A stretch of DNA of 64,000 bases from Trebouxia sp. TZW2008 (taxonomy: Eukaryota > Chlorophyta > Trebouxiophyceae > Trebouxiales > Trebouxiaceae). Under the pieces are notes generated by a model. The model was not told the DNA's origin. It saw nothing but the letters and a program-made list of their open reading frames with translations, and searched no databases. The stretch is from positions 51,094-115,093 of the forward strand of contig BDIU01000300.1 in assembly GCA_002118135.1 (NCBI GenBank). The letters run 5' to 3'. Positions 2,590 to 59,559 of the stretch are shown here, in pieces. The translations under genes were made by a program, and so were the position numbers. The first letter of the stretch is position 1. Every line of letters starts with the position of its first letter.

Positions 2590-5500
2590 ATGGAGACTTG
2601 CAGCACTTCAGCGTCGATATCAGCAAAACGACGCTCGCAATCAGTGGATTCAGCCCTTGCAGTCATTCGTGACTTGCATGCCTTGCAAAGGCGCGGACTG
2701 ACCGTCAGCTTGACACGCACGGTTGCCGAAAGGGTAAGCATCGCAAATCTGCTCAGCGTTGCTTCCATGAATTCCAGGTTGTTTGCTGCGCCCTGCTGAA
2801 TCAAACGGTTTTGAAGACTTACGCTGCTTGTCTGGGCAAAGATGCCAACAGTGGCCTTAGCCTGTTTTGACGTCGGGTTCAGCTTGCTTCTACAGGGCCT
2901 TGAGGATTGTGACGTCCTCCTAAACCAGCAGCTGTATGCCAGATATGCATCAGACAGCAGCAGCAAGCCGGTGAGAACTTGGAAGTCACAGTCGCAGACT
3001 GCCAGCCAGGCCTGCTTTCCTGAACAGCCTCCAAAGCAGCATGCACAGCAAACTGCAGCACAGCAAACTGCAGTCAGGCTGGCTTCGCCATTCCAGGCCA
3101 TGTCAGCGCTTGGCCTGCCCGAAGCGGCCCAGGCGCAGACATCGCATGCCGCAGAGGACGGCTCGCCTCTGGCGTGGCCGCGAAACGGACCAACGGTGTC
3201 TCACGACTACGACATGCCAGCCAAGATGAACACTGAGGACTGCTTAGACCATCCTTCAATGTCTGTTCTCAGCACCACAGCTGAGCACATTCCTGACAGC
3301 AACCGTCCTCATCTTGACAGACACCTCAGTGCACCCACCTCACCCATGTCACCAGATCCCTTGGCGCTGCTGCTGGATCCAGCTCACTCACTGACATCAG
3401 ACACGATTTCTTTCCATACGTCACCAAGTCTTCCTCTGCTAGACTTGCCAACAGCAGCAACAGATGCTACTGCTGCATCTACCCATTCATCTACTCAACC
3501 CACTGAAGTCAGACTTCAGTTGGTTTCAGCGCCAGCCGCTTTTGGTCAGCCCATTGGAATCAACAAAGCCATTTCTCCAGCCTTGCAGGTACTCCTGCTC
3601 GCTTTGGCACATCTCCCTGCATGCATATGCACAATTTGTGATGCACTGCAAGCTTGCAGAACACTGTCTTGCAGCCTTTCGCTTGCCTGGGAACAAGGTC
3701 TGAAGCCATTGCAAGGCCCATTGACCATATCGTATGCCTTGGGTCATGCCGTAGATGTGCATGCAACTTCACAACTGCATCAGGCAGGCGGCATCTCAAT
3801 GTCTAATGAGGGCACAATCGCTCTGCAAGGCAACACCAGTAGAAAGCCCTGCGCTGACACATGTCTCACTTGTTGTTTGCAGGCTCAAGTGGAAATGGTG
3901 TCTTCAGTCCCCACACAGTTGCATGTCAAGCTAGTAGCATACCTGATCACATCAGATCAGCTGCTGAATCTGAGTCAGTGGGATCCCAATGCGCATGTTG
4001 TGTCTGAGCACATCATCGGTGGAGTAGCAGAGCAAACAGTGCCATGTGACACGGTGCAAGCGGTTTTGCCGGATGGCAGTACTGTATACAAGGGCAGCTA
4101 CAACCTGAGCTTCAGAGGTAAGACTGCGTTGCCATGCTGTCCTGTGCTGCAATGTCTTGTGCTGTGCTGTGCTGTGCTGTACTGTGCCGTGCTGTGCTGT
4201 GCTGTGCTGTGCTGCGCTGCGCTGTGCCGTGCTGTGCTGTGCTGTGCCTTGCCTTGCCTTGCCTTTCCTTTGCATCCATTGCGCATCTGCTTCTTGGCAT
4301 GCAACACACCTCTGCTGCAAGTGTCTCTTTGCTACAGATTGTACTGTTCCTGATGGCTCAATGTTGTCAATTGATGCCTGCATGCATATGCTGCAAGTTT
4401 GAAGGTCACATGTGTATGCTATGAGCTTGGCAGCATGCATGCATCAGGCCACCACATACAAAACTGCAAAGCACAAAAACTGACAATATCCACTGTGCTT
4501 TGCAGACATGAAGTTTGCGACAGCCTCACGCATGAGACCTCGGTGGCTAGTATTGGCAATGATGGTTGGTGAAGATGCCTTGTTCCTGCACTACAAGGTC
4601 CCTACAATTGTCATGTCTCGCAGTTGCGACCAGAACAACAAGGTCTGTCTCTCTTCTTCTGTCATTCCCAGCTGCTGCATGCATATGGCCCTAACAACAT
4701 ATATTACAGTCAAGCCCCACCGCTGCAAACAGAACACCTCGGTCTGTTCTTCTTTGCCTCCCTTTGCCAACTGTTGCATTACAAGGGATTCCATTACTGT
4801 CATGTCTCGCAGTTGCGACCAGAACAACCAGGTCTGTGCCGAGCTGCAGTTGCATCACATGGCCCTTTTTCTCCAACTCTTCTGTTGCTGGCACACATTT
4901 CACTTGAGTGGCTTACCACAGTCATGCCTTGCAGTTGTGACCAGGAGTGCCAGGTCTCTCTGCTTCTTTCTTTGCTGACTGCTGCATACACGCTGCACCT
5001 CTGAGGATTCTGCCTTGTCATGTCTTGGAAGTTGCCCCCAGGCTTTGTAAGGTCTGTTCCTCCTCTTATTCGAAGTCGCCACCAGACTTTGTAAGGTCTG
5101 TTCCTCCTCTTCTTTGGTTGCTAGCTGCTGCATGCATGCTGCATTATCAGGTCCCTATCAAAGACACGTCTCACAGCAGCGACCAGAAAGCCAAGGTCCT
5201 CTTCTTCTTTCATTACCAGCTGCTGCGTCCATGTCGCATTACAATGTCCTTCCATTGTCATGTCTTGCCTCCACAACCAAAACAAAGTCTGTACACCTGC
5301 TTCTCTTGCTGCCTTGCATCAAGCTGCGTAACTTTCTAGCTGTGCATGACTGCTGCTTCATGTTTGTACATCTGTTTCATGTCTGTACGCAAATGTATTC
5401 ATGCCATGCGAGCCCAACACCTACAAGGTCATTGCTGAAATGCAGCTTGGTTTGTCAAATGTGGTTGCATGAATTGACATCGGCCTGCACATTTCTGATG

Positions 5501-8500
5501 GCTTAGTCACAGCCAATTGCTGCGGACACGTGACATACAAGCGCTGACATTTGTGACTGCGCATCAACCTAGATACATGTTGCAGGCTGCTAGCATTCTG
5601 AGAGGAGAGATGCAGCACAAGAAACGGCCCAGAAGCAGCGAGCCTGACGAAGGACAGATGTCTCAGTGTCATCTCAATGAGGTTGCGGGATCAAAACCCG
5701 TTGGGGATCATTTGTGCTCCCCACCAGCAGGGCTGAGAGTGGTGACTCAAGGGCTGTCCCAACCAGCTCTGAGTGCAGATCAAGCTGCAAGTTTGGGCGG
5801 GTCTGTGTCCTACAGATCTGACTCAACGCTCAGGACTTATGACTCAGGACTCAGGCAGCCCAGGCAGGCTCGGCCATTCAGTGCGAGGGAAGTTGTGGAG
5901 CCCAATGGTTTGCTGTCGCCAAGTGATTATGTGAGCCTTAGTCATTCTGTCAGAAGCAGCTCAATGCCAGCGCATGCGCAAGACTCACAAAAGTTGACTC
6001 CGATCTCCAAGCTCAGAGCAGTGAGTCACACAACTTTGAGTCCTGATCCTAGACTGTGTGAACAAGATCCCAAACAAATGTTGGCGTCGTTCTTGTCACA
6101 TGACAGCACAGTGCCGACTTCCCCTCTTCTTCCTGGGTTTGAGCCATTGAGTCCAACATCCTCTGCCATCATGGCTACATTACTCATCCCTGAGTCACCC
6201 ATGGCGGGAAACGACGCTTCAGCCCTGCTTCCTGATTCCCCTGTGGCAGGAAATCTTGGTTCCAGCCTCAGCCCTATCTTTCAATGTCAGCATAGCCCAG
6301 ACTCAGGACAAAGTCACCGCAGCTCTGATACCAGAACAGCTAGTCAGTCACCAGCACTCATTGATCCTCAGGATCACTGGACTCATCTGGAATCATCCTT
6401 GGCTCAGCCGCATCAGTCAGGCGGCAATGACTTTGGACTCTGGAACTCTCACACAGCTCTCCACTATGACTCAGTTGGCATGGCAGGAAGGCTTGAGCCA
6501 CACCCTCTGGGCTCTGGACTCATGACTCAAGACTCAGGACTTGTAACACCACCTCAGACTCAGAGCAAGAGACCCACTGATCCAAGACTCAGAGCCAGCA
6601 GCTCAGCCAGAAGCCTAAACTCAACTCAGCAGCTGAGTAATAGGGAGTGTTTGAGTTGGCCAAGCCAGGGGCCATACAATATTGAGCGGTGGCAGGCATC
6701 ACTCATGCAGTATGTTTCCTTCTGGTCATCCTGTGTTCAACCCCTGCCTGTTACATTGCACCCAACCCCATCCCCCCCCTCCCTCCCCATCCAGGACCCC
6801 CTCGACCCTCCCCCTCACACATCTCAAACCCCTCCCCTCCCCCTGGCCCTGCCCCCCTCCCCGCCCCCCAGCCAATCTCTCCCACATGTAAATTGTAAAT
6901 TCATACTTCAATTCTTACAACAGGCATTTTAGTCCTGTTTACCCTATATATTTTTGAGAGAAGATTGACTCTGTGGCTTTACCATTAACTGAGCATTGCT
7001 ATTCGTCATTCAGCCTCATATCTTGCAATGATTGAAAAGTGCTGTTGCTGACTGTTGCATGTCTCTTCAGGTTGTATCGGCAGTCCAATTGCTTGTTCAA
7101 TCGCATAGCATGCCCCTGTATGCAAGGCTGTCTGTCATTCAGCCTCATATCTTGCAATGATGTGCATGTGCTTCTGCTGTTCCTGATGCTCTGTTAGTGT
7201 CACTACAGGTTGTACCGGCAGTCCAACCTGGGCAGGCCTCTGACAAACCAGGATGTATGGGTGCTGGGCCAGGTGGCAGGGTTCCACAGCGACCCTATCT
7301 TGCTTGACACAGACTGTCTGTCAGAGCAGCAGTGGCAGGATTTTGGAGACTGGTTCATCAGGTCAGCAGTCCTATTTGGCTTGCTGTTTATTATGACATT
7401 TGTTTTGCTACTTTGTCTGCTATTTAGTGTGCTATGTGACCGACCCACCAGCTTGATGCTGCCCAGCGCTCCTTAAAGCCGTTGTCGGCGGGTTGGCATG
7501 GCTGATTTAATAACTGAAGAATTGCATTTTGCAAAGGCGAATCTCAAACGTCAGGACATAGCTGGACTGTGATCCGTTGCAAGCTGTGCGTGTCCTTCTG
7601 TGACTGTCAACATGTGTCTTGCAGCATGGTGTGTAGCTTGCCAAGCGCGCCGCTGACATGAGTTTCATATGTGACTGCAGTCAGTTGCGGCTGTTACGGT
7701 GTCATCAGCAGTTGTGAGCAGACATACATATCATGTGCAATCATGCTTCTTGGTTCTTGGACTGACATAAACTTTCACGTGTGGCTGCAGTCAGTTGCGG
7801 CTGTTACGGTGTCACCAGCAGTTGTGGGACAGAAGGGACCCTGTGCTGTTGTGCAGCTTTGAAGTGGACAGAGTCCAGTGTGAACACCTGCTATATGGTC
7901 AAGTCCCGGTAAGCTGCTACTTTATCTTTTCCAATCGTGTGTGACCATCTGCTGAACCCATGCTGCCAGTGTGATCACCTACACGCCAGTCATGTCATAG
8001 AATTATTTTGCAGCTTTGAGGTGGACAGAGTCCAGTGTGAACACTTACTGTACAGTCAAGTCTCGGTAAGTCACTGCAGACCAGCTTCTCGCTATACAGT
8101 CAGCTCACAGCATGTGTTCATGCTTGACTTGTTGCCAAGGATGTCAGTGTTGTCTGTTGTTGATGACACCTGCTCTTGAAGTCACTACAGTAAACTCTTG
8201 TTGTAATGACTGCTCTGGTCACCAAGAAGTTTATCATTACATCAAGTTGTCCTTACTCAGTGGGACCAATGCAGTCAGAATGCAGTGATCGGTCACCAAT
8301 AGCACTGTCCTTACATCAAGTGTCCTTTACGAGTTTACTGTGCTTGCATTGCTTTGGCACTGGCATGCGTTCAAACCCTCAGCAGATAGGTACAAGGCGT
8401 TTGCACCTGCTGCCAACATCAGCACTGCTGCTGTCAGTCATGCACAAACCATCTGTGACTGCACCTGTGACTGTGTTTGTACATGCGTGCGTCTTTGACT

Positions 8501-10179
8501 GCCTCTGTGACTGTATCTGTAAACGTGTCTGAAAGTGTGAGTGTGAATATATTTGTGCAGGGCACCTTCCTGATTAGGCCTAGCATCTCTTTGACAGGCT
8601 GCATGGTCGTTTCCACTGTTTCTGTTGGTGTCAATGTGTGTGACCGTGTCTGTGCGCGTGAGCAGGACACATTCCTGATCAGGCCCAGCAGGCTGCATGG
8701 TTGTTTCCATTGTTTCTGTCTGTGTTGATGTGTGTGACCGTGTCTGTGCGCGTGTGCAGGGCACATTCCTGATCAGGCCCAGCATCTCTTTGACAGGCTG
8801 CATGGTCGTCTCCAGTTGACTTTTTCTGTCTGTGATGGTGTCAGTCTGTGACAATGTGCGTGACTGTGTCTGTGCGTGTGTGCAGGGCACCTTCCTGATT
8901 AGGCCCAGCATCTCTTTGACAGGCTGCATGGTCGTTTCCACTGTTACAGAGAGCGGCGCTGTGAAGCACCTGTGTCTGGATAGCAAGCAGTTGTACGCCA
9001 GATCGCTAGAGGTACTGATTCTTCATGCAGCATGCTCAGCAGGCTTTTGCCATGCAATTTGGCTTTGCACAAAAATGGCATCGTCCATAGAAACATAGAG
9101 TTCAAGTCTTAATGCCTGGACAGCAAGCAATTGTATGCCAGATCGCTGGACGGACTAGTCCTTCATGCAACAGTCTTGTATGCAAGGGTCCTTCAAGACA
9201 ATGCACTGCGCCGCTGTGTTGAACTGCACTGCAATGCAACGTACTGCACTGCATCATGATAGACTGCATTGCACTGCAGTCTGGGCTGCAACATTGGGCA
9301 ATGTTGCAGCCCAGTACTGCAATGCAATGCAATGCAATGCAATGTACTGCATCATGGTGCATTGCATTGTGCCATACTGGGCTGTGCTGTACTGCGCTGT
9401 ACTGCAGTCTACTTTGCGTTGCTTTGAACTATACTGCGTGTTGTCTAACTAACACCTAATTGCAGGTATGGGTGCGAGACGCTGTTGAAGCACAATTCTT
9501 TCTGGACTACAGAACTGGTCGCGTGTGGCAGAAAGAGCAGGTAAAGTAGCAGATGCGATATGCTTTTGAGTTAACGTCTTTCTGTTTCTTGGAATTTGTG
9601 TTACCCTGTTTGGCCGCATGTGCGCTGGGACCAGCACCATTCTTTCCATATGTTTTTGCATTGATCAGCAATCCTGTTACACTAGCAAGTACAGGAGCAC
9701 TAATGAGTTTTGCATCACATCCATTCAATTGCTGAGGTACATGCTCATTCTCAGACACATGCCAAGCTCACATTCTTTGCTCGTCGCATCCCTGAGCCAG
9801 ATCAATTTCAGATGCAGGCTTTTCTTGCCATTGTTGTCCTTAACATTGTGCAATCAAACCGATCTCATACCTGCTCTGCATGACAGTCATCATGTGCTGC
9901 TTTGGACGTCATGGTGCCACTGCTGCTGCTGCTGCTGCACAGCTGCCTAACACTCAAGGTATTGTGAGACATGCCATGTCAACGCAGCATGCTTGAAAGT
10001 CATGGCTTCAAGACACAGAGCAAAGCTCATGGCATATGCTTTGGTTGCAGGTGTTCCTGATGCAGTACAGAAGATTTGGTATGGTGATGGACCTTCCGCA
10101 GACTATGTTCCCCACTGCAGACTTTGGCATGCATCAAGCTATCCCCAGTTCAGGCAACATGTCTCCAGACTGTGCGTAG
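2590..10179 (+). CDS. STAT-type transcription factor with DNA-binding-like region, linker and SH2 domain
   Basis: Ten exons fit in phase: 2590-2733, 2896-3588, 3883-4117, 4506-4642, 5586-6709, 7209-7361, 7791-7908, 8886-9011, 9466-9540 and 10051-10179, giving about 977 aa. Residues about 280-403 end in VPTIVMSRSCDQ, resembling the STAT DNA-binding strand LPVVVISN..Q. Residues 404-770 form a Ser/Pro-rich insert that starts with the basic cluster HKKRPR, a possible nuclear signal. A STAT-like linker follows (RWQASLMQ, then EQQWQDFGDWF and QLWDRRDPV). It runs directly into the SH2 core P-GTFLIRPS, with the phosphotyrosine-binding Arg of the FLVR motif present. The C-terminus has a tyrosine (MQYRRFG) that could be a phosphorylation site. 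STATs are known from animals and Dictyostelium, and linker-SH2 proteins from plants. The start codon and the DNA-binding assignment are inferred. The linker-SH2 part is strong. Confidence 0.75.
4133..4270. repeat. GTGCT-type simple repeat in STAT-like intron 3
   Basis: Just after the exon 3 donor there is an impure run of GTGCT/GCTGT pentamers, passing into CCTTG repeats. It lies wholly inside the intron between 4117 and 4506 and explains the Cys/Leu/Ala-rich open frames on both strands. Confidence 0.9.
4580..5310 (+). repeat. Donor-side junction echo array of STAT-like exon 4
   Basis: The end of exon 4 with its 5' splice site (GTCATGTCTCGCAGTTGCGA followed by CCAGAACAACAAG|gtctgt) recurs in diverged form near 4710-4745, 4795-4835, 4915-4960, 5015-5055, 5060-5105, 5155-5200 and 5250-5290. 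Spacing is about 50-120 bp. Each copy keeps part of the exon end and usually the GTCTGT or similar donor. All copies lie downstream of the exon, inside intron 4. Confidence 0.85.
6760..6890 (+). repeat. C-rich polypyrimidine tract in STAT-like intron 5
   Basis: A run dominated by C-blocks of three to eight with interspersed T and A. The minus strand has many G-tracts and could form G-quadruplexes. It lies about 50 bp downstream of the exon 5 donor at 6710, so the open frame running through it is intronic. Confidence 0.8.
7069..7100 (+). repeat. Acceptor-side junction echo of STAT-like exon 6
   Basis: The sequence caggttgtatcggcagtcca repeats the acceptor and first codons of exon 6 (caggttgtaccggcagtcca at 7206) about 135 bp upstream. 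The two copies differ at one base in 20. A second shared phrase, cattcagcctcatatcttgc, occurs at about 7010 and 7137, showing that the unit duplicated with its intron flank. Confidence 0.85.
7677..7725 (+). repeat. Acceptor-side junction echo of STAT-like exon 7
   Basis: The acceptor and the start of exon 7 (gactgcagtcagttgcggct, continuing gttacggtgtcatcagcagttgtg) are present here. The functional copy starts at 7791, 113 bp downstream. The echo diverges after about 45 bp of exon-like sequence. Confidence 0.9.
8010..8075 (+). repeat. Donor-side junction echo of STAT-like exon 7
   Basis: Codons for FEVDRVQCEHLLY-S-QVS followed by gtaagt repeat the end of exon 7 (FEVDRVQCEHLLYGQVP|gtaagc, ending at 7908) with few substitutions. 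The copy stays open in the same frame and keeps a consensus 5' splice site, so it could act as an alternative last part of the exon if spliced. Confidence 0.9.
8188..8340 (-). mobile_element. TA-flanked MITE, copy 1 (shortened)
   Basis: Starts CAGTAAACTC after TA and ends GAGTTTACTG, giving terminal inverted repeats. Internally it shares CAGTCAGAATGCAGTGATCG and TCCTTACATCAAG blocks with copies at 27095, 36136 and 53836. It is about 20 bp shorter than those and lacks TA at the right edge. The TIR form and TA target are typical of Tc1/mariner-pogo type MITEs. It lies in STAT-like intron 7. Confidence 0.8.
8551..8885 (+). repeat. Acceptor-side junction echo array of the SH2 core exon (three extra copies)
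   Basis: The acceptor plus the codons for GTFLIRPSISLTGCMVVST appear at 8561, 8666 (internally shortened) and 8760. The full exon follows at 8886. Spacing is 105, 94 and 126 bp, and the intron lead-in (tgtgaccgtgtctgtgcgcg) is copied as well. Every copy keeps cag and the FLIR arginine codon. Only the last copy continues into the complete exon. Confidence 0.9.
9115..9170 (+). repeat. Donor-side junction echo of the SH2 exon
   Basis: The end of exon 8 (DSKQLYARSLE|gtactg, ending at 9011) is repeated about 145 bp downstream as DSKQLYARSLD. Its splice donor is degraded (gac gga instead of gag gta). The following cttcatgca tract is also shared. Confidence 0.85.
9195..9440. repeat. TGCAA/TGCACT simple repeat with long inverted repeat
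   Basis: An imperfect array of ACTGC/AATGC units in STAT-like intron 8. At 9281-9314 it contains a perfect 16-bp inverted repeat, CTGGGCTGCAACATTG, separated by GG. Flanking sequence (gcatcatgat on the left, atcatggtgc on the right) extends the foldback with some mismatches, so the transcript could form a long hairpin. Confidence 0.75.
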
Positions 10180-10640: not shown

Positions 10641-12127
10641 AGTCAGACTCTGACCGAAGCATCCGCAATCCCGGGGGCAACATTCCAAGAGTAGGCGGCA
10701 AAGCTCCTCTATCTGAAAAGCAGTGTCTGGCAGACAATCAATCAACGCTGTTTCCGCAAACGCAACTGTTTGCCTGGTTGCAAGCTCCCAATACACGTAG
10801 CTACACACACACACACAAGGTGCTTGGACCTTTACACAGCTTTGCAACCTTTTGCTTGCTCAAATCGTCAACAGCAACAGCAGACTGATTATCTTCATTG
10901 GGAAAATGTTGTTTGATGCGTTCATGTTATGCACAGCCTGCTGTAATCAGCAGAACTTGGGTTCTGACATGTCGGCAAGCGTCCCTCTTTTCCCTTTTGT
11001 TCCTCCTTGCCATATCGTGAAGGCTGGTCAACATTGATGTTTTCGCCAGGTACTGTTTAGCTGTTTGGTTTTGGTATGACTATCGCACTGAGCCTATACT
11101 GCTTTGATAGCCTACACAACGTTGAGCAAACACGCGCTGACATTACGTGCATAATTAGGAGCGTTAGTCTTTACCCCCTTGTACTTTAAAGTTGCTTGTA
11201 CACTTCTTTTGTGTCTGAGAGTGAGGTCTGAGCAAGATCTGTTGAGCTGAGTTTATGATTCGAGCTGAGTTGAGTCCAGACTGAGTCCTGTTTGGGTCCC
11301 ATTGGGCGAAGTATGTGATGCTTCATCTAGACCTGACTGTTTCCACTATATCAGTCACTGGCCAAAGGAAAGGTTTGAAGGTCAAGCCGGGGTCGATCAA
11401 AGTGGGATGAAATTCATTGGCCATGGTTTATCCTGTTTGAAAAAATAAACGGTGCTGTTCTGAGTAGTGCAGCTTTATGCAGGCCAAGCAGTAGACCTAC
11501 TCTGGGTTTACCAGTCATTAGCCTTAGGCAGATCAAGTCGAGCCTCAAAGCATCTGCTTAGAAGTCAGCTTAGTACAGGATCCCTAAGGCATTCCTTTTG
11601 TCAGCTGCTTTGAATTTGTACATAACCATTCAGGCAGCAGTCTGGCCCCCGATGTAAGTAGAGACTGTGTGATATCCATTGCACGCGCCAATGACATATG
11701 CTGTGCGAAATGGTGCAGCATTTGCATGAGCACAAGTGTGAGTTGTGCCATGGACGCTCTCACGCCCAAGACACCATTGAACCTCAAGGCTCTACTGAGA
11801 TAAGTATTCACCTATCACTGAGGTTTGCTTGACTCGTGCATTCCAAATGGCACTTCAAGCACCGCAAGCTCGTATTTTACAGTGTTGTCTAAGACTCTGT
11901 TGCCTGTGAGGCATGCAATGAGATAATGCACAAGTGTAAAGTTTACACATGCATTGATCTGCTGCATGATCACGGGTTGCAGATGTTCGCGTAGGCACAG
12001 GTCCGACAACTTGCAGGCAAGTCTTTCTGGTCCTCTCTGCAATGTCACGGCTCTGTCATCACGGCACGTTGAGCGGCGGACCTGATGCTCGCAGGCAACG
12101 TCTGCGCAGACAGACAGCGGGATAGGC
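10641..12127. other. Intergenic, no supported gene
   Basis: Short open frames only, with a small CA run near 10802-10817. The last few hundred bases should contain the tautomerase promoter. Confidence 0.5.
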
Positions 12128-12940: not shown

Positions 12941-15900
12941 CTACTCCTCATCACCACCTTCCTTGATTTGAGCCAGGCGCTCCTACAGGACACACACAAA
13001 GTTTGAATAGCCAGGAATTGCAAGACAGGACAAAACCAAGATGTGAACAGCAAACAACGATTACAACCATCACAAGACAGAAACAAACTATCTACAGCCA
13101 AGATCTTGATACTTTACAGGATAGAAATAAGGCGCAACGGGCATGACTCCATTGCTAATGCTCATCAAGATGCCATGAGCTTGAAAATTTTCATGACCAT
13201 ACATCCAGCTCTACACTAAACATTTTGCGGCAAGTTTTTTGCCAGAATATCTAGCTCCATACTGCTTTCTTTTATTCAGAACACAGGCTTGGACATGATC
13301 AGCCCCAGGCCAACATGCAGCTGTGGAAGCAGTTGGCAGTCAATGTGACTCAACGGGTCCAAGAAGTCCAAAAAGCAAATTAAAGTAAGTGAAAGCGGGT
13401 GTAACGCAGTGTGACTCAACGAGCGCTGACCTTGCTGTGCAACACCAGCTTGCCACATACTTGAGTTTGCTATCTGCACTTCTTGACCGTGCCAAGTGAC
13501 ACCAACAGTCAAGTGCTGTTGTGCATGCACTTAGAGGCATTCAACTGCATCAACAGCATGCAGTTTTGCATGCACTCCAAGGCATGTCTGCACTGAATTG
13601 AGTCAACAGCATGCAGTTGTGCATGCATCCCAAAGATGAGACCCCATTGATCTGCATCAACAGCATGCACATGTGCACTGAGGCGCAATCTGGTCGGATG
13701 GCGAACCCGGAGCTGCACTTTTGTATGCATGGACTGTGTGGAAGAACATGCTTTGACTGAAGGCATGAATGAATGATGACAGTACCTTGAGCTTCTGCTT
13801 GCGCTCATCATAGGTCAGCTTCTTGGCCTTCCAGTTCTTCTTCTCTGCGGGCTTAGTGCGCTCCTTCTTCTGTGGTGATGGGTCCTCACGGATTGCAGCA
13901 TGCACCTGAACAACAAAAGATGTTAAGAGCCTTGTTCCCAAGACAATGTGCTAGACTCAAGTGCGCAACTCAATCAGAGGTTGGTCCTCAGAAAGGCAGT
14001 ATGCACCGCATTAGATATGCTGGGGTCAATACTCTGATGACTGCATCGTTACATTCTTCTGCGGTGACGGGGTCTCGCGGAAAACAGCATGCACCTGTGC
14101 AATCAGGCATGCTAAAATGTCACGCAATGACAGCAATGACGGCAGATGTGCAGCACTGCCGCTGGTAACTTGTTTGGCTGCAATGTGTACACCAGAGGAA
14201 ATGCAGCACATTGGTGTTCTTCAGCAATGAGGGCAAATGCTCAAAACCCTCACCAACAGCACTTGACTACCATGTGCATGGCAACATCATCAGGGCAGTT
14301 GCGCTACACTGTCCTCAACAGGGCACTTGAGCACAATGTCAGCAGTGAGAGCAGCTGTGCAACACAATCATCAATGGCGCATTGATAGCAACGACAGCAC
14401 TTTGCCAGATCTGCTGCATTGTTCTCAGCAGGCCAATTGAACACAACGCCAGCAATGAGGCCAATTGAACACAATACCAGCAATGAGGGCAAGTGCACAA
14501 AGCCCTCACCAATGACACTTGAGTGCAACATTGGCAACATTGGCAACAAGCAGAAAGGCAGAAGCTTCTCACCTCCTGCAGCTTCTCTTCCAGGTCTCCA
14601 CCTTCCAACTCAGCTGCAATGTACTGGCTGAAGTGCTTGTTGTAGTTTTCCTCAGAATCCTCTTGCATCTCCTCCATGTACTCAGCAACCTACAGCTCAC
14701 CAGCAGAGTTGTTACTGTCAGGCGCGCAATGACGGCTGTCATTACGCATCATGACGGCAGCAGTGCTGTGAGGCAGGAGCTTCTGGCTGCCTTCAGGCAA
14801 ACCGGCGTACTAGGATGCAACAGCTAGAAAGACATCATTCACAAGTGTTGCTGACAGCTGCCGCCAGCAAGTGCAACACCAATGCCTCAGTGCTGCATTA
14901 GCTGAGGTGTCATGCTCTGCTTTGGCCATTAGTCTGCGAACAACATGAAGCTGGCTTTTTGTTCCTCTGATGTTGACAGACTGTCGTGTGACAAGACAGC
15001 CGGAGTGGTGTCTGCAACTGCTGTGGAGCAACTTAGAAGACGCCCTGAGTCAGCCTTCATTGCTGCTGGAGGGTATCAGCATACATTGCAAACAAGCTGT
15101 GGTTAGATGAAGCAGCAGGATTGCCAACTTGAGTTGCTGTCAGGTAACCCAGAAGACACCCTAACACAGCTATAAATGCTGCTGAAAGGTACCAAAGGTA
15201 TCAGCACAACTTGCAAACAAGCTGTTGTTGGGCCAAGCAGCAGAATTGTTGTCTGTGACTGCAAAGAAATGACGCAGACAGCACTCTAGCATTGCCACCC
15301 TGAGGATGTCAGAAAGCATGCGTTGCAAGCAGCAATTGACCAGCCACTCCAGTCTAAGGCTGTAGGCTGCTTAAGTCAGCAGCTTAACAGCAAACGAGAA
15401 ACAGGAGCTGAGGAAGCAACAGGGCCCCTTGCAAGTCATATTCAGGGACGTCATGCAATCCCTCATGTAGCTTGTGTATAACATGCTGACACAACAGATG
15501 CAAGACACATCAGATGCATGACACAACAGATGACGCTTGCCATGCTGTGCCACAGTGGCGCAAAGTACTAAGGGATTGCTTTCTCAGCATAGACACCATG
15601 TGCGATGGAAACAGCCAAAGAGGCAGCAGGACATACGTGACCACCCATGATGTACTTCTTCAGCTGCTCAGGGTCTAGCTTCTTGGCCTCAGTGTCGTAA
15701 CCCACAAACCTCTTGTCACCATGGGGGATATCAAGACCACCGTCAAGCGCACCCTGCACAGTGCAACAACCCGTTGAGTTAGCTCATGTCGACAGTTTTG
15801 TAACCCAGAAATCTCTTGTCAACATGAGGAATGTCAAGACCACCGTCAAGCGCAACCTGCATGTTGGATGCTGTAATGAGCGTTCTCATCATTGATGACT

Positions 15901-16693
15901 GATGGTGGTACAACAGCAGCAACTCAACTATGATTGCAGCTTCATCTTCAGAGCAGCAAAGACCTTGCTGCCACTGGATGTTCTCTCCTTCAAGCATTCC
16001 AAGATATCAGTGCAGATTCAACACTGATGAGATAGTCGGAATTGCAGCTTTACCTTCAATGCAGCAAAGACCTTGCTGCCGGTGGATGTTCTCTTCAAGC
16101 CAGTGTCCAACAGGGCAGTGAAGGGGCGTGGGCCATCATCAGAGGCCTCAACATTGTAGTCTTCTCCGGTTGCCTCCTCTGCTCCAGTGTACACGCTGTC
16201 CAAGTTGAACTTCTGCAGCACTCTGCGTGCTAGCAGCAAACCAGTGGCGTAGGTTGCTGCATAGTTGGTCAGACCAGCCTGCAGATGCAGAATCACAGCT
16301 TGGGGCACATGCTGGAGCAGCATAGACAGTTGTCTGCAGCTTAGGCATAGGTGGTGAGGCTTGCGTTGAGCATGACGCCGAAGCATGAAGTCGAGCAGGT
16401 GCTTAGAAGAAGCTTGATGAGCTGACCTGCAAACCATAGCGGGGCAGCTCGTGACTGTAAGCTGCAGAGACGATGACATCGCCTGCTATGGTTGCGTAGG
16501 CAATCTGGCAAGTGACATCCTTGTTGCTGAAGCGGACGACGAAGCGGTACTTGGGGGTGTTGTACTTGTTCTTGTCCTGAGATGTCAACCTTAGACGAGC
16601 ACGATAGTCAGTCTTTCCCTGCCTCCTCCGCTTGTATTTGACCTGATACCTACTGAAGTATGTGCTGCTGCGCTCAACCTTGACGTACACCAT
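12941..16693 (-). CDS. RPL5: Ribosomal protein L5 (uL18)
   Basis: Six exons on the minus strand join in phase: 16693-16427, 16278-16054, 15753-15637, 14689-14573, 13905-13786 and 12982-12941, giving 295 aa, the usual L5 length. Diagnostic stretches are [26 protein letters not shown] and [34 protein letters not shown] and the basic tail [15 protein letters not shown] follow. L5 binds 5S rRNA and is part of the 60S central protuberance. The start MVYVK is the family start, though an in-frame ATG lies 24 bp upstream. Introns 2, 4 and others carry junction echoes. Confidence 0.97.
13545..13700. repeat. Tandem repeat in RPL5 intron 5
   Basis: The phrase catcaacagcatgcagttgt followed by gcatgca recurs three times at about 60-bp spacing (13548, 13603, 13655). 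The units are intronic and contain no splice junction that I can see. Confidence 0.75.
14049..14110 (-). repeat. Acceptor-side junction echo of RPL5 exon 5
   Basis: On the minus strand this copies cag plus codons for [14 protein letters not shown] as [14 protein letters not shown], about 185 bp upstream (in transcript direction) of the true exon start at 13905. The frame is lost soon after. Confidence 0.85.
15791..15870 (-). repeat. Acceptor-side junction echo of RPL5 exon 3
   Basis: On the minus strand a second acceptor is followed by codons for [20 protein letters not shown]. The functional exon beginning at 15753 reads [20 protein letters not shown]. The copy lies about 110 bp upstream in the transcript and ends in a stop shortly after. 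Confidence 0.9.
15934..16002 (-). repeat. Donor-side junction echo of RPL5 exon 2
   Basis: The end of exon 2 ([12 protein letters not shown]|gtaaag, ending at 16054) is copied about 95 bp downstream in the transcript, with the GSKVFAAL codons recognisable. Together with the exon 3 echo it makes intron 2 almost entirely of junction copies. Confidence 0.85.
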
Positions 16694-19391: not shown

Positions 19392-20035
19392 TGCCTCAGC
19401 CTGATCAAGCTGTTGAGCAGCATCATGGTACGTCCACAGCTGCTTTGTGTCAAACCTGGTTGTGCTGATGGGCAGCGTCATAGGTATGTCCGCGGCTGTT
19501 GTTGCAACAAGGGCGAGTGTCCTGATGGGCAGCGTCATAGGTTCGTTCACTGCTGCTCTTGCAATAAAAGCATCAGCCTGGTTGTGCTGATGAGCAGCGT
19601 CATGAGTATGTCCACAGCTTTTTGAATCAAGTGCATCAGCCTGATCACGGTCATGAGCAGCGTCATTGGTGCATTCATTGCTGCTTTTGCAACAAGTGCA
19701 TCAGCCTGAACATGCTTATGAGCAGCGTGATAGATATGGTCACAGCTGCTTCTGCAACAAATGCATCAGCCTGAACATGCTGATGCGCAGCGTCACAGAT
19801 ATATCTGCATTTGCTTTTGCAACAAATGCATCAGCCTGATCATGCCAATGAGCAGCGTCACAGGAACGTTGACTGGTGCTTTTGCAATAAACGCATCAGC
19901 CTGGTTGTGCTGATGGGCAGCGTCACAGGTATATCCACAGCTGCTTTTTGAACCGAATGCATCAGCCTGATCAAGCTCACGAGCAGCACCATAGGTATGT
20001 CCACAGCTGTCGTGCAAGGGGCTGTGACAGTCATT
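19392..20035 (+). repeat. 63-bp minisatellite carrying a splice-donor-like junction
   Basis: About ten copies of a unit of roughly 63 bp: gcatcagcctgatcatgctg, then atgagcagcgtcataggtat, then gtccacagctgcttttgcaa. The first copy overlaps the end of a putative exon (PQPDQAVEQHH followed by gtacgt). The array therefore looks like an amplified exon-end/donor segment, the same kind of event as the junction echoes elsewhere. Confidence 0.85.
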
Positions 20036-26753: not shown

Positions 26754-29700
26754 ATGGAGACGGAGGACGGTAACGAGGATGTCTGCGGAGCTTGCACCGA
26801 TATTGGCGATTTGATATGCTGCGAGAGCTGCCCGGCAGCATATCATGCTGAGTGCGCTGGCTACGGTACCCGTTTCAGTCATCCTGATCAGTTCGCTGTG
26901 CGCAAGATCGTCTAGCGACCCCGCCTTCAACTTCTGCAGTGAGCCCTCAAGAGGTTCCTTCAGGCGATTGGTATTGCTGGTCTTGTTGCATCCAGCTCAA
27001 CCGATCCTTTCCATTTCCACGCACACGGGTATGCACTCTTTTGAAACACAGAGCAAGCTCGAGTGTACAGACAGCAAAGGGGGTGACCAACATACAGTGA
27101 CGTGTCTTTGTACTGACTACTTTGTTTGCCAAGGATCACTGTCTGTACATTGAATTGTCTGCCTTCAGAGATACCACTGCAGTCAGAATGCAGTGCATGG
27201 TTTCAAATTGCCTTGTCCTTACATCGAGAATGTCCTTTAATCAAGCGTCCTTTCAAGGAGAGGTTACTGTATCAGAAAGCCAGGACCCTGAGCAGCATTT
27301 TTTGTTCTTTGCAGTTCCGTGCAGGTACTGGGAGCCTGGTATTTGTGGCTATAGAAGGGCGCTTGGACACTTTTCACCAGGCCACTTTGGAACAATTGGG
27401 TGCAGACAATTGTGTTGTGGCGTATCATGAAAGACAGGTGTGCTCACAATGCTAGCTGTGCTGCAATGCTGTACTGTTACTGAGTTGTCATACGCCACAT
27501 CACACTGATGAGGCCCAGCACAAAACCTGTCAATGAATGGGTTGGCATTCACACCCATGTCATCAAGTACAGCTCCAGCTGTCTGCAAGGCAGAGGGCAA
27601 TGTTCACAGGACAAGATGTTGGTTCATGACAGGCTCAGCAGGTCCTGCTAAAACCGACAGCAGCTTCTGTTGGCAGCAACTGTTGCAATGCAGTTTGCTT
27701 GATTGTCAGAGCACGAGACATCTACAGTGTCTGGGTGTGTTTGGCAGCTTGCTGCCAAGTGCATCCTGCAGTCTTGCCAATGCAAGCTTGTGTCAAGACA
27801 GGCTTGTGTTGAAGCACATTTCACTAGCTCAATCGCCTGTGCATAGCAACCACTGAAAAGATGTACCCACACATGTTGCAAGTGGGCTAGGAGGTTTGGT
27901 GCAGGGTATTCTGTTGGACAAAGCCTGTGGCCATTTGTCATTTTGATCCAAGGCTCTTGCATGCAGGATGGCACTAAGCGAGAACAGATTGGTAGGCGCA
28001 ATCACCGAATATGGCACGGCACCTCAGACCCTAAGGCCTGGGAACAGGGTTTGACACCTGGTGAGTGGCATCCACTCAGCCGCAGATATGCTGTGGCTCA
28101 AAACACTAGAGCAGCTTCTCAATCAGCTTCCCAACCAGCTGCCTCAGCAGCTGCACCAGCTAAGGATGACTCAGCTCCTAAGGCACCTGCAGCTGCAAAG
28201 CGTGCCCGCAGCCGCAGCACGAGTCATGCTCCTCAGCCAGGGCGTACTTCTTCAGCGCCACCTGCAGCTGCTGCGCCAGCTTCCTTCATGCCTCATCTGG
28301 CAAGACCAGCGGCAGAACCAGCGGCAAATGCTGGCGGGAATCCTGGTGTGGCGCCAAGGAGCATTTTGGTGGGAACAACCCTCATGGGGCCAGTGATGTA
28401 CAGGCCTCAGATGCCAGTTGGGCCAGCTTTCCCGCCAAACGCCAGTCACGTGTCAGCTCACTTTCCCGCCCCTTCTGCTTCAGTGAGTCAGCCAAAGTCA
28501 AAAAGCAAGAAAGCGCCACTCAAGAAACGGCGCAGGTCCAAGGCAAATTCCTCTGAAGAAGAAGAAGAATCCAGCTCTGCCTCAACAGACTCAGACTCAG
28601 ACCTAGCAGACTCAGACACTCAGGACTCAGGCTTTGGCTCAGCCTCAGCTGCCCAAGTCAGAGGCCACAAAGCAGCTAAGGCGACAGCAGGCAGCACTGA
28701 AGAAGAGGAAGGGTTCCTAAGGGCACTGACCCAGTTTTGGCAAGAGCAGGGCACAACAGGCAGAAAGGTCCTGGCCAAGTACCAGCCCTTTGAGTCCATC
28801 AGGCTTGCTTCTGGAATGCCGCTGTTCAGCACATATGACTTTTGGGCTGCAGTCATGGCTATTGGTGGCCATACCAAGGTATGCATGCCCTCTCTATGTC
28901 CTTTGTTGCATCAAGTCACTATTGTTGTTCAGCACATATGACTTCGAGGCTGCAGTCATGGCTATTGGCGGTCAAAGCAAAGCATGCATCCCCTGCCCTT
29001 GTCCTTGTCTGTGTGTGCCTCCTCAGTCATGTTCTTGTTTTGCGTTAGCACTTCTGGGCTGCGGTCATGGCTGTTGGGGGTCATAGCAAGGCATGCAACT
29101 GCTGCCTTGCACCCTGTCTCAGTCTATGTCTGCCCTGTGAATTTGTCAGGCTAGCCTCTGGCATGCCACTGTTCAGCACGTATGACTGCGAGGCTGCAGT
29201 CATGGCCATTGGCAGGCATGCACCCTCTGCTTGTTCCTTGCCCAAGATGTCAAAGCGCCTGTGTCTATCTGTGTCCTGTTCCTATCTGTATCTGCCCAGA
29301 GAGGCCTTTATGTGTAACAGCCAATTCTAGAGAGTACGTAGACTGCAGTCATGGCCATTGGCAGTCACAGCAAAGCATGTAACTGCCGCATTTGTGGGCT
29401 GTGTTGATCTGTGTCTGCTCTTTGAGTCAAGCAGGCAAGCCTCTGGCGTGCTGTGGTTCAGCACATATGACATCTGGGCCATTGGGTGTGTATATCTATC
29501 TATAGCTAGATATATGTAGCGGTGATGGCATGAATGACTCATACCTGTAAATGTAGGCAGGGGACAAGAAGGCATGGGCGGGGGTGGGGCGGTTGTTCAG
29601 CCCCCCCAGGAGCATGACCACTATCTCTCATACCTTCAAGTCTGCCTATGAGAAGATGCTGCTCCCCTTTGAGGAGGTAATGCCCATAACACAATTGTGA

Positions 29701-40574: not shown

Positions 40575-43500
40575 ATGCCAGCCAGCACCACATTTGCAGC
40601 CCCTTATGGACGCGTCATGTCTGGGCGTGGCTTTGCCCCAACAAGTTTTCAGGCGCATGACATCCCAGCTGCTGGACAGATCACCAGGGACTTGCCAGAT
40701 GTCAGCGCCAAGTCCAACGTCAGGAGTCAGATGCAGCAAGCACAGTTCGTCAAGAGTCTGCAGTTGTTGAGGGGCATGCCAATGCAGTCTGCTATGCCAG
40801 GCAAGCACACACAGTTTCTTGTGATTCATGCAGTCTGCCCTTTCAGGCAATCGTACACAGATGCCTTCCTTGTGATTCATGCAGCTTCTGAGTGTGTGAG
40901 TTAAGCGCACAGGCTCAGTTTTGCATCAGCCAGAGATAACCGAGAAGTACTTCACCCAGCAAAGCGTCCACATCTCAAAATACCAGAATACGTCTATGCA
41001 TACGCAACACCTGACCATTGTTGCAGATTCTGCCTGACTGAATTACAGATCCCCCTGCAGGTGTCAGTTTTGCGTCAGACAGAGATGACCCAGAAGTGCA
41101 TCACCCAGTCAAGCGCCCCCGTATCATGTCAGAAAATGGTGGCTCAGCTTCAGATGATCCCTTGTTGTGCATTGTGCGTTTTGCCTGACTGAACTTAAGA
41201 ATGCATTGCAGGTGTCAGCTTTGCATCAGCCAGGGATGACCCAGAAGTGCATCACCCAGCCAAGCGGCCCCGTATCATGCCAGAATACGGCCGCTCAGCT
41301 TCAGACCCGCCTCTGTCTTTTGCAAGGCGCAATGCCAATGCCATGGACATGCCTATTGAGGCACTGAGGCTGGAAGCTATGAGGAGCGGCCGCTTGGCAG
41401 GGCCGGATATTCCACAGCCCTTGCGCTCAGTGCAAAGCAGCCCTTCCAGGTGAGATAAGCGTGAAACAGCAATAGCTGCCGACTTATGATGTGCCAAGTT
41501 GCCTGTGACCATAGCTTGCTGATTTCAGAGCTTGTTGTGTCATTGAACATTGGATAGCCTCTTTGTCATGCCACATGATGTAGGCGCTTTTGAACCCTGC
41601 ATTTGCTGTCAGCAGACCTCTGTTGCTCCTGCGCCTGCTGGGTTGACATCTCTATCATGGCATCAAGCTTCAACTTATTGTCTGCTCACAAAACGCTAGC
41701 ATCAAAATCCCTTGTGCCAACAGCTGGAGCCAACTGTAGATCTGCATGTGTGACTGCAGGACTGACAACCGGCCCTCACCCAACTGCCGCATCTACAGCA
41801 ACGCCTTCAAGGGTTCTAGAGACGGCGCAAATGGTGTTCCCGCCAACTACAGCCGGGCAAAGGTGTGCCACAAGTCTCATCACTTGAACTTTGCGTATGC
41901 ATGTATGCAGCGAAACACAATGTTTTTATACGGTAACACATGTTGAATGGGTTTGCACCTTACATGCTGTTGCCCAATGAGGCTGCATCTGTCTAGATGC
42001 TGTACACAGCATGCTGCACCAATGTATTGACGACCCACAATTTCTGTTAGGTTTGCTAGTCCGCAGCAGGCGTCTACTCCTGACTGCATGATTTGCTTTC
42101 CACTGCGTCATGCTACACGGTGCACTTTGCACATGTCACCCTCTGCCATGTATGTTGACACCGTCAGACAATGCAATCATATGCTGTTTTAGACAGCCAA
42201 GCTGGGTACAGACCTCTCACAATGGTCACTTTAAGAGGCTTGTGCTGCTCACATGACATTTTATAAGTCGGACTGGTCTTAGGCTTGCTGCTGACATGCA
42301 GGCTACACCCATCAATGCTCAGGAGCTGTCAGGAAAGGGCCCAACCTCAAACACTGGAGGTGGCCCAGACTCCACCCCCCACCCTGCTCTGCTCAAACAG
42401 CCGCTGCTAGGCAAGAGGCCCTCCTCAAGCGGCCCGGGGGCTGTGCCAAATGACCTTGTGGCTAGCAGTGCTCAGCAGCAGCAGCCTGATCAGGCTATGC
42501 AGCATGACTCATCCCAGCGCATGAGTCATGAGCCACCGTCAATGGCTGAGGCTGATTTGACAGCTCGCTTGCAACACATGCAGAGCGTTGTCAGGCAAGG
42601 TGGAAACCCTGGCTCTGCTGCAAACCCTAAGGCAGCAACCCATACTCCCCCACCTGAGCCTGTGCCCTCACCCAGAGCCAGCCCAACGCATGAGTCAGCT
42701 TCCACTGCAGACACTGAGATGGATGACAGTGCATCACATGACATGTCACATGGGTCTGCTCAAAGAGTGTCCCACAGCTCAGAAGCGGCAGCAGCAGCTG
42801 CTGACCTAAGCAGCAAACCCCAAACAGCTGAAGGCAGGAACAACTCAGCAACTCTGCCCTCAGCCAATGGCAACTCGGCACTCAGAGAGACCGATGGGCA
42901 CAGTGCTCAGCCCAGCGGTCATTTTGAGAGGGAAAACGGGCATTTTGGGCGGGGAAGTGTCAGTCCGCACAAGAGTGACCAGGCTGGTTTTGATGACAGC
43001 CGTCCTCCTCAAAGAAGCTTTGATAGCGCCCAAACAGGGTCAAGGGCCAGCTATGGGTCCCAGCAGGGTTTCACGGCCAGGGATCACAAACCTGATGCTC
43101 AACAGTATGAGTCAGAGCAGAGGAGTCAGCTGCCTTCCCACAGCACTGGCATCATTCCATCCAGGTCAGTATTGGGTTGCTTGTGCTTTGCTTTGAAAGT
43201 ATGCCTTACTATGAGGTGCTTGTGAGTGCTGCCCATGTTCAGTTTGCACGCACTAGGTAAGCACACATGCAAGAGCTTGCTTGGGAGTAGATGTCAATGT
43301 TTGACGCTTGACATCTGTGCTGTGGTATGCCCTGCAAGTGCTGTATTGATTGTTGCGTGTCATCATTCATTGAGCAAGGCAGCTGACCTGCAACATGCAG
43401 GAGTCAGTTGTCTTGTATCCTCTGACCTCTGTAGAGGATTGGATGGATGATTGCGACCTGTAAGTGTTGATTGCACAACTGTATCTATGGTTTGATAGGT

Positions 43501-46500
43501 CTCCCAATCATGCTGGCATCATTGACATATATACTATGCAACACCTGCAGGAAGCCAGCACCATTGACCAGACCCAACACAGGCACCAATCAGGGCAATG
43601 CTGACCGGCCCTGGTCAAACCTGTCAAGTGCCCTGCAGCCAGCTGCCTCCCAGCCCTCTTCTTCTGCCCAGGAGATGAATGCGTCCATCCAACACCTGAT
43701 GGCAGGCTGCATGAAGAAGAGCAACGGTCACAGGGAGGAGGCCATGCTGCCCATGAGTGATGCCAATGTGCAGCAGCTGCTTGATCAGCTTCACCATCTG
43801 TCTGAAGTAGCAGGTCAGATTCTTCTTGCCGCTCTGCTCTTCTTCTTCTCTCATCTGATTTGTCGCTTCTTTGTCAGCCATTCAGTGACTGCTTCGCCAG
43901 CTTCACCATCTGTTTGAAGATGTGGGTGACTCAGCTTTTGTCTTGGCTCTATCTTCCTGTCCTGCCTGTTCGTCTTCTGCTTGTTTAGCTATGCTGCCCG
44001 TGACTGATGCCAACATGCAGCAGGTGCTTGCACAGCTTCATCTACTGCTGCTTAAATATACTGACAGCTTTCCCTGTTGCGTTGGTATGCATGTTGCACC
44101 AGCTGCAGCTGTCTCTCACGAGCGATCAAAAGCTGTCAAGCTGCCAGCCCCATGGGGCTTGCCGTTGATGTGCCTTTAGCTGATGGACGTGACAGGTTTG
44201 CTGTGTATGGACTTGATGGCATTAACAGCAGCTGCCTGTTGCGCATGCATCACGTCAATTCATCTGCCATGACATAGCTGCAGTTTGCTGTTTCGCATCC
44301 CGAGCACAGTGAGTAGTACCCTTGTGTGCGAATCTTGTAAAAGGCAGTTGAGCTGATTCTTAATTGTGCTGCAGCTGCAGGCAAAAGTGGTCAGAGATCA
44401 GCTGTGCCACAGATGAGCGCTGAAGAGCAACTCTTTGCTCAGCACGCAAATCTTCCTCGGCCAATCCAAGCTCAGCTTCATGTCATGCGAGACAGCTTCA
44501 ACCGAGCTCGGCCTCACATGGGAGATCATTCTCAGCTTCCCGCCCTTTCCTCAGCTGCTGCCACTGCCGCTTTCCCGCCATCAGGCTTCCTGCCTAACAA
44601 TCGTGAGCAGCTCAGGAGCATTTTGGCGCCAAACCAAGGGGCGGGAATGCCTCAGAGTGGTGCGCCAAAGGCTTTCCCGCCTCATGTGCCCCTGCCCATC
44701 AGCTCATCCACCAGATCATCTCTCCCGCCATCAGTTGCCAGCTGGCTTGAGCAAGAGCAGCAACACCGGCGCCAGCTGTCAAACCGCAGTCACATGGGGA
44801 CGAGTCAGCAGGCGGGAATGCCAGCTGGCATGATCCCGCCACCTCACATGAGTCAGGGTCACCACATGGTTCATCATGACTCAGGATATGAGCAAGCACA
44901 CACTTCAAGAGGTAAAGCATGTGCAATGTTTGAGTCATTGGTGTTTTCATTGATTTTCGTTTGCATGACTGCACTTGTGCTCTTCATAGCATACGAAGTT
45001 GTGATGCCTTGCCCTGTGAAAAGCTCATAAGGTCCTGCATTCTGTTAAGTAGAGTTGCACTCAGATGCGCTCTGATTGCATTTCCAGCTGTACTGAGCAT
45101 GTGTTTCTCAATTGATGCAGTGCTTGTGCAGCAAAGCCGCTTCTCTCTTGCTGTTGAGTTTGAGTCAAATGCTAGAATCACTTTGACATACCGCGTACCC
45201 AACAAAAAAAACACAAGGCGCTTTGACCTGGTGTCAGATCAGCTTGAACTTAATCCCAAGCTGACGTGACTGCAGGTTATGGGCAAAGCAGTAGACCCTT
45301 GGACAGTGTGCGCATCACTGGCAACAAGGATTGGTACGACACCTTAGGCAATGGCAACAGCCTCCCCAGCAGAGTTGTGGGTGAGGCTGGGGTTAGAAAC
45401 CCTGCATTACTAAACAGGCCTGTTTTGGCAAGTCATCGAGACCCTCAGCCAGTTTCCCTTCAGCAGGGACTAGGGTTCCCAAGGTCTAGGATTCAGCCGC
45501 CAGCATCAGGCATGCCTCAGGGTTTGGCTGGCAGAGGGTTTGAAAGCTTGAACGGCAGCTTGGCTGCTCAGCGTGCACAGCATGACTCCAGCTTTGCCCC
45601 CAGGACAGCAGGTGGCGGCTTCCCGCCAAATCAGTCATATGGACAGCCACACTCCGAAGGGCCATCAGCATCAGTCCAAGCTTTGGCTGCTATGCTTGGT
45701 AATTCAAATATGTCGCCAGCAGACGTATCTCAGCTGGCTTCAATTGCGGGAAACACACATGCGGGAAATTTGAATCAGCTGATCTCCCAGCTTCAGATGG
45801 CTACACAGCTTGCGCAAAGTCAAGGCGAGCCTCAGGAGCCTCTGGTTGAGACAACTCACCGCGTAGTCATTCCTGCCGCACACCTGAAGGAGGGAAGCCA
45901 TGCTATTGCGCGCGCCAGCCAGGCAGCTCAGCAAGGCGGGAAAACAGGAGCCACTGTGGCAGACGGCGGGAAGATCTCGCTGCAGCAGGCCAGGGCACTA
46001 GCTGCAACAGCCCCAGAGCCTCAGTCTGCCCTTGATGTCGTTGCTGAAGCTGCTGTGGAAGCAGCTGAAGCAAACAATGAAGAGCCTTCTGAACTGCTGA
46101 TGTAAGCACAGCAACTACATTGCGTGTTGAAGCAGTTGAGAATTGCGTCTTTCTCTTGCGCTGGCATTTGCTGCTGCATTGATTTATCGCATTGATTGAT
46201 TGCAATGATTGTCAGTCATGAGCATTACTCAACAGAGACTGTTTACGCTCTCATCTTACATCTCTCTGTCATGAGTTGAGGCTGTTGTGTGCTCAATGCA
46301 GTTGAGTGTCAATCAGTGTGCAGGGCGTTATCCTGAAACCCTGCCCTGCACACCTCTGCATGCAAGTCTACAGTCATGTTGCATGCAATGCATGTCCAAA
46401 TCGCCTTGACAGATCATTTGGCCACATTGCATATACAGTCTGTTTGCACATCACTCTTTTGCTGCACCATATCTGACTTTGGCTTCCTTTGTTTCCAGGT

Positions 46501-48231: not shown

Positions 48232-59559
<11,328 letters not shown>

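Follow-up and report, generated by a model that had tools for sequence, protein, structure and literature searches.

Diverged copies of splice junctions within introns of a Trebouxia genome and their probable origin by local tandem duplication

Splice-junction copies in Trebouxia and comparable duplications in other genomes

Internal gene duplication, the subject of Gao and Lynch 2009, is reportedly frequent, and the splice-junction copies of Trebouxia resemble it in being duplications within genes. In the potato RdRp gene, a tandem duplication across an intron-exon boundary made a new intron, according to excerpts of the report by Ma, Lan and Niu (2016, PMC4974935). As in Trebouxia, the potato duplication carried an acceptor and the start of an exon along; unlike Trebouxia, where the copy is absorbed by an existing intron, it yielded a new intron together with an inserted piece of exon, and it concerns one gene, whereas in Trebouxia many genes are affected, often in several rounds. 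The Rogers model, as outlined in excerpts of a review (PMC3443670), explains intron gain through tandem duplication of an exon segment containing AGGT; it shares with the Trebouxia copies a local tandem duplication that alters gene structure and leaves the protein unharmed, and it differs from the Trebouxia V-ATPase A gene, in which no new intron arises and the duplicated unit spans an existing splice site. AGGT-type intron gain was not seen in V-ATPase A: the copies lie within introns, and the matching database protein, P0121, holds no inserted piece of exon. Tandem exon duplication leading to mutually exclusive exons, as presented in excerpts of PMC9013439, likewise repeats exon sequence in adjacent introns, whereas what is repeated in Trebouxia is, for the most part, an exon end with a single splice site, the pair 7849/8006 being an exception.

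The original prediction held that a genome-wide mode of intron growth by duplication of junctions is not standard knowledge. Duplication across a junction is known from potato (PMC4974935). Among the open-access literature matches listed, titles and opening lines of abstracts contain no genome-wide description of junction copies and point to studies of individual genes and of intron gain, PMC4974935 being one of them. In the retrieved portions of two further papers, 'intron' occurs once (PMC12712428) or not at all (PMC11523091), and 'tandem' occurs in neither.

The window, the whole stretch of DNA under analysis, comprises 64 kb (positions 51094-115093 of its contig) of a Trebouxia genome (68,541,624 bases, 527 contigs). 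Trebouxia is a green alga of lichens. The RPL5 protein encoded in the window is 89-90% identical to Trebouxia proteins, and its V-ATPase A is 97% identical to that of Trebouxia sp. C0006 and 99% identical to P0121. Gene models were predicted ab initio, with training carried out in this analysis without RNA on the window and further stretches of up to 294 kb in total, a non-random sample of nine contigs picked by number. The 294-kb set contains 48 genes with a total of 347 exons and 299 introns (median intron length 394 nt over 281 training introns), and the splice signals recovered by the gene finder are sharp (donor approximately CAG/GTGNG, acceptor TTGCAG/G, the slash marking the exon border). 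Control comparisons refer to an earlier 234-kb set and 60-nt junction templates. Removal of six overlapping pairs reduced the 87 junction pairs to 81, on which most divergence figures are based. Some copies are mispredicted as exons by the gene models (e.g. 8561-8635 and 56818-56973), and at least two intronic copies are spliced into V-ATPase A by the ab initio model.

Junction copies in the genes of the window

V-ATPase A is the clearest case, for P0121 matches it almost identically, exon for exon; because the 616 codons of P0121 fit within a contig of 2,071 bases, this protein probably represents a spliced transcript. With exons fixed by P0121, copies of exon starts lie upstream and copies of exon ends lie downstream, up to six per exon; none of these copies occurs in P0121. 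The start of the exon for residues 194-236 recurs three times upstream, and later parts of it recur three times downstream. At 56395..56521 (this and all following V-ATPase A coordinates are on the minus strand) lies the functional copy of the exon encoding EYTMLQAWP..., identified by the P0121 match and the ab initio model. Upstream of it are a copy of the acceptor and exon start at 56606..56723 (echo C, 89% identity), a further copy at 56801..56928 (echo B; self-comparison and tblastn) and, furthest away, a partial copy of the exon start at 56998..57052 (self-comparison); downstream are a copy of the later part of the exon at 55890..55961 (self-comparison and tblastn) and weaker copies at 56035-56091 and 56193-56309, the latter with neither a self-comparison match nor a control. 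Echo C differs from the exon by 12 synonymous changes and one nonsynonymous change and has eight private changes, of which six fall at third positions and, on manual reading, seven are synonymous, while the private changes of echo B are distributed 5:3:5 over codon positions 1:2:3 and look neutral.

Elsewhere in V-ATPase A, the acceptor and start are repeated for exons 55413-55618 (P-loop; copy at 55685..55812, 89%), 54217-54438 (54539..54624, 78%) and 57250-57426 (57494..57583, 82%), and the end and donor for exon 58455-58631 (58278..58418, 84%). Two upstream copies repeat the start of the exon for residues 530-594 (49519..49621 and 49696-49799; junction scan and tblastn), and four diverged copies of the end of that exon lie downstream within 48503..49126 (tblastn matches 49054-49117, 48868-48933, 48716-48775 and 48503-48559). 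A search of the genome with P0121 gave 25 matches, 20 at the locus (exons and copies) and five to distant ATPase homologues at 26-33% identity; a DNA search of the assembly with 3.25 kb of the gene found no place besides its own locus. In the P0121 search, copies of V-ATPase A occur at this locus only.

The RPL5 gene (minus strand) repeats the acceptor and start of exon 15637-15753 at 15793..15861 (87%), orthologous proteins agreeing with the copy that adjoins the exon body, and the end and donor of exon 16054-16278 at 15936..15995 (85%), where manual reading finds the donor GT changed to AT; these two copies share one 300-nt intron. The acceptor and start of exon 13786-13905 recur at 14054..14097 (82%). 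A genome search with RPL5 returned five exon matches at one locus and missed the known copies, so that it demonstrates a single locus and nothing further.

On the plus strand, three tandem copies of the start of an SH2 exon (real exon 8886-9011; domain assigned by Pfam) occupy 8554..8814, one exon-start copy being 98.5% identical over 67 nt, and the end and donor of the SH2 exon recur at 9113..9156 (84%). The whole 52-nt exon 7857-7908, with both of its splice sites, is repeated at 8006..8070 (88%); the two copies have flanks that are not alignable and differ by five synonymous and two nonsynonymous changes, and from its sequence 8006..8070 is a candidate true duplicated exon. The end and donor of exon 4506-4642 recur at 4775..4837 (86%). 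In the ARID gene, exon 31210-31451 has its acceptor and start copied at 31051..31143 (81%, with a frameshifting gap) and its end and donor at 31522..31553 (88%), and the end of exon 27961-28878 is copied at 29132..29212 (81%). The large gene at 39.6-47 kb carries copies of the acceptor and start of exon 41212-41449 (41056..41154, 89%) and of the end of exon 43551-43813 (43988..44040, 85%). The end and donor of exon 19188-19427 recur at 19958..20004 (85%) within a 65-bp repeat array; the array, at 19391-20009, consists of 7.5 copies (TRF) of a unit of approximately 65 bp and lies mostly within a predicted intron.

Self-comparison of the window yields 90 repeat pairs, the majority local and direct. 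On the ab initio models, 20 non-overlapping junction pairs lie within the window and four more just to its left; the window genes that carry them are SH2, RPL5, ARID, the large 39.6-47 kb gene, V-ATPase A and a small gene at 19-20 kb, and Pfam confirms the SH2, ARID and RPL5 domains. The diverged junction copies that the original prediction reported from introns of a 'STAT-like' (SH2) gene, RPL5, ARID, the large gene and V-ATPase A are thus real.

The window holds several other features. A dispersed repeat of approximately 150-180 bp, in both orientations and with 72-81% identity (8182-8327, 27092-27272, 36134-36316 and 53833-54016), looks like a short mobile element; a second short dispersed family occupies 20350-20384, 35858-35923, 38168-38231 and 53089-53157, and imperfect palindromes match their own reverse complement at 9227-9369, 13360-13485 and 51689-51802. 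An intron-free open frame at 12119-12487, oxalocrotonate tautomerase-like (Pfam Tautomerase_3), is possibly a transferred gene. A divergent histone pair, each member with one predicted intron, consists of 61177-61738 (minus strand), an H2A by Pfam, and 62094-62513 (plus strand), whose product we take to be H4-like, Pfam having matched histone-fold families CENP-T_C and TAF alone. A 70-bp direct repeat with sharp ends and 93% identity (59971-60040 and 60208-60277) lies outside the set of junction pairs. Comparison of the window with Rfam gave nothing at gathering thresholds, and ARAGORN found zero tRNA.

Prevalence of the copies and their probable origin by local tandem duplication

In the 294-kb set, a flanking splice junction is repeated inside 70 of 299 introns; acceptors are copied in 49 of 284 cases and donors in 38 of 277, and all nine sampled contigs contain junction pairs. 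In the 234-kb set, the intron next to the junction holds a match for 35 of 258 acceptor templates (upstream intron) and for 27 of 249 donor templates (downstream intron); the corresponding matches number 0/258 and 1/249 for reverse-complemented templates, and 0/258 and 0/249 both in randomly drawn foreign introns and in the shuffled control. Copies on the wrong side of the exon are rarer than on the right side, with 6 of 221 acceptor templates and 6 of 222 donor templates matched (Fisher p = 1.3e-5 and 4.8e-4, respectively). Intron interiors also repeat, since 17 of 196 intron-interior templates match the remainder of their own intron. Templates from exon interiors match introns in 5/123 and 2/100 cases and the remainder of the exon in 3/123, and intergenic templates match in 2/136 (200 bp searched per side). 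Local direct repeats take up 14.6% of intron, 12.0% of exon and 4.4% of intergenic bases. Introners or transposons were rejected as a source of the copies: matches in foreign introns number zero, and the V-ATPase A copies occur at their own locus only.

An artefact of assembly or of mixed haplotypes, to which short tandem repeats are prone through misassembly, is extremely improbable: the copies differ by about 15% (median identity 0.85 over 81 pairs), a frameshifting gap is present in 31% of the 81 pairs, and the assembly has one locus each for V-ATPase A and RPL5.

Copy-bearing introns are longer than others (median 578 vs 359 nt, p = 6e-11), although longer introns also offer copies more room. 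The best copies account for 4.6% of intron sequence overall and for 14% within the introns that carry them; the proposal that duplication lengthens introns is in keeping with the difference in length, but the growth explained is partial.

Local repeat pairs in the 294-kb set are direct in 226 cases and inverted in four within 1 kb, and direct in four and inverted in three at 1-5 kb. Among the 81 junction pairs, spacing has a median of 166 bp (10-90% range 115-307), and 20% of pairs abut, with a gap no larger than 10% of the spacing; for a gap no larger than 25% the share is 38%. The spacing of exon-bearing pairs clusters at 125-175 bp (44 of 100), a nucleosome-like size. The copies are local, direct, often tandem, multi-copy and missing from the V-ATPase A product, and their direct, local, in part abutting and multi-copy pairing supports the original prediction that segments spanning junctions have been duplicated repeatedly in tandem inside introns. 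The constant geometry that was also predicted, with the functional copy nearest the exon, is seen as well; it adds no independent evidence, because tandem duplication with an intact exon body forces it.

Very probably, then, the junction copies are the product of serial local tandem duplication, followed by decay of the exon parts that is slower than that of introns. Local tandem duplications of roughly 100-200 bp would recur in this genome; a unit lying across the edge of an exon would leave one copy attached to the body of that exon, still functional, and a second copy that is spliced out. The intron would grow by one unit per duplication, and several rounds would build arrays; that each unit stems from one event, and the order of the events, are presumed. 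Units lying within an exon or breaking the frame would probably be removed by selection. The copied exon parts would then decay more slowly than introns, with changes biased as in coding sequence; recombination of the copy with its exon, which would expose the copy to selection again and again, may be the reason.

Plain duplication followed by neutral decay does not fit, because in 37% of the 81 pairs the similarity covers less than half of the unit, as against 4-11% in simulations; in the 22 listed pairs of this kind, the intron-side edge of the similarity lies at most 28 nt from the splice site. Young pairs are also few, at 4/81 with an identity of at least 0.925 (p = 0.015 vs 13%), as are young noncoding pairs (3/50, p = 0.03 vs 16%; range in steady-rate simulations 12-19%). 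Because young pairs are scarce relative to a steady rate, a past burst of duplication is possible, and the duplication may have been such a burst.

Whether junctions are favoured over other DNA bears on a simpler account, in which duplication is uniform, straddles borders by chance and gains its special look from slower decay on the exon side, with neither junction preference nor selection. Intron-only and intergenic pairs exist too: at spacings of 60-300 bp, and leaving out 20 pairs in which both copies contain exon sequence, the non-redundant pairs number 69 with exon in one copy, 24 intronic and 13 intergenic. The repeats of intron interiors noted above likewise agree with uniform duplication, and decay of exon parts at 0.35-0.45 of the neutral rate is enough to raise the expected ratio of junction to intron pairs to 1.4-1.9, and of junction to intergenic pairs to about 2. 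The observed ratios are 2.9 and 5.3, whereas uniform duplication was simulated to give junction:intron:intergenic counts of 813:902:762 or 1190:1391:1173, depending on age range; exon-containing pairs are 1.5-5 times as frequent as the uniform prediction. Simulated neutral copies moreover fail on N/S, stops, frameshifts and sharp ends. By judgement rather than formal test, the excess of junctions is firm relative to intergenic DNA and borderline relative to introns, and uniform duplication is a possible account of the copies, if a less than probable one.

Divergence of the copies and its causes

The copied exon parts have diverged by 0.111, 0.088 and 0.243 at codon positions 1, 2 and 3 (N/S 0.84, 81 pairs), and the ratio of divergence at position 3 to that at positions 1 and 2 is 2.41 (95% bootstrap 2.10-2.78, 87 pairs), with modest heterogeneity among pairs (p = 0.03). 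In eight simulations, with the exon constrained and the copies evolving neutrally, N/S was 1.34-1.73. The simulations also gave frameshifting gaps in 58-69% of pairs, against 31% observed, an argument that weakens at a lower indel rate, since the outcome depends on what is assumed for indel rate, unit length and constraint. In-frame stops number three in 1813 codons (81 pairs), against a simulated 0.0084-0.0104 per codon, which, scaled to the divergence observed, gives an expectation of about 13-16 (P(<=3) 0.001 or less). On manual counts, gap lengths that are multiples of three show no excess in exon-copy pairs (4/39 vs approximately 27/254 in noncoding pairs).

Private changes in 27 three-copy arrays, for which the neutral N/S is near 2.3, separate the copies further. 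The copy most like the exon has 34:27:54 changes over the codon positions (one-sided p = 0.0017, N/S 1.13), contrary to the equal change at all positions expected of a neutral relic; the exon has 10:7:62 (N/S 0.27), and the less similar copies have 70:55:84 (N/S 1.46, six stops) and are nearer neutral. Among the 31 abutting pairs, divergence is 0.199 in the intron flanks and about 0.10 at codon positions 1 and 2, a 2:1 relation that alone would fit a neutral copy, but third positions, at 0.225, are in excess, and simulated flanks at that codon divergence differ by 0.14-0.15.

Several other causes were set aside. Doubling the rate of evolution of the exon left the simulated N/S at 1.34-1.35. 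Mutational bias does not explain the third-position excess, context mutability being about equal over codon positions (0.216, 0.213 and 0.203), and CpG-aware simulations left the third-position result unchanged. Gene conversion alone was dismissed on the reasoning that it would raise N/S. CpG sites are hypermutable: over 66 noncoding pairs from the 294-kb sample they mismatch at 0.69, as against 0.15 for the remaining C sites, a contrast to be expected under CpG methylation.

The picture of spare splice sites decaying freely, implied by the original prediction, is at odds with the scarcity of stops and nonsynonymous changes: the copied exon part seems partly constrained. On evidence that is partly mixed, partial coding-like constraint on the copied exon parts is probable, not certain. 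One alternative is that the copies were already diverged at birth, the tandem duplications having formed by unequal exchange, or by integration, between haplotypes that differed at many silent sites; part of the divergence would then date from a time when both partners served as exons. This would jointly account for the few young pairs, for differences of a coding-like kind and for flanks that do not align. We consider it unlikely, for by our estimates it requires roughly 20% silent divergence between the partners and predicts more stops than are found, and for neither V-ATPase A nor RPL5 was a second haplotype found in the assembly.

A second alternative is that the copies are functional mutually exclusive exons or regulatory decoys kept by selection on splicing, the latter having been part of the original prediction. 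Coding-like constraint would agree with this, as would the retention of AG in 43 of 49 copied acceptors and of GT in 26 of 38 copied donors, the duplication of one whole exon with both sites (7849/8006) and the slightly greater frequency of strong far-end acceptors (score at least 6) in donor-type copies (0.11 vs 0.06 in controls). Against it, far-end second sites with a score of at least 3 are rarer than in control windows (acceptor-type copies 0.10 vs 0.24, donor-type copies 0.22 vs 0.27), so that, 7849/8006 excepted, there is no overall far-end enrichment of the kind expected if each copy had both splice sites. The copies are mostly partial exons, with a median of 67 nt of exon; P0121, the one V-ATPase A product at protein level, lacks them; and the spacing has no bias towards multiples of three, which are slightly short (19, 37 and 25 of 81 pairs for spacing modulo 3, p = 0.045). 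Copied sites score below real sites on average, 12 of 38 donors are lost, and the six copied splice-site bases differ by 0.159 (27/170; 31 abutting pairs), above codon positions 1 and 2 and above the 0.07-0.09 simulated with the real site held fixed; because they differ by this much, they are not conserved. Regulatory decoys thus find no support so far, functional alternative exons or decoys are an improbable general reading, and alternative splicing is unlikely as the reason for the constraint. That the copies are ordinary exons missed by the gene models is disfavoured by the general lack of second splice sites and by P0121.

Two accounts of the constraint by recombination are left, birth from diverged haplotypes and continuing collapse or conversion that makes broken copies costly. 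It is conceivable, though doubtful, that the exon-edge copies are under second-order purifying selection, in which the exon is rewritten time after time from its copy through recombination (collapse or conversion) and copies harmful to the gene are purged; introns would thereby hold a constrained reservoir of exon edges, and exons would attract duplications.

Serial local tandem duplication offers a measurable mutational route to longer introns, with a trace in about one intron in four of the sample (23%). For annotators the copies are a caution, because ab initio models may splice them in, as happened in V-ATPase A. If the constraint is true, intron sequence adjacent to exons would not be free to decay even when splicing leaves it out of the transcript, and this would amount to a new form of selection on noncoding DNA.
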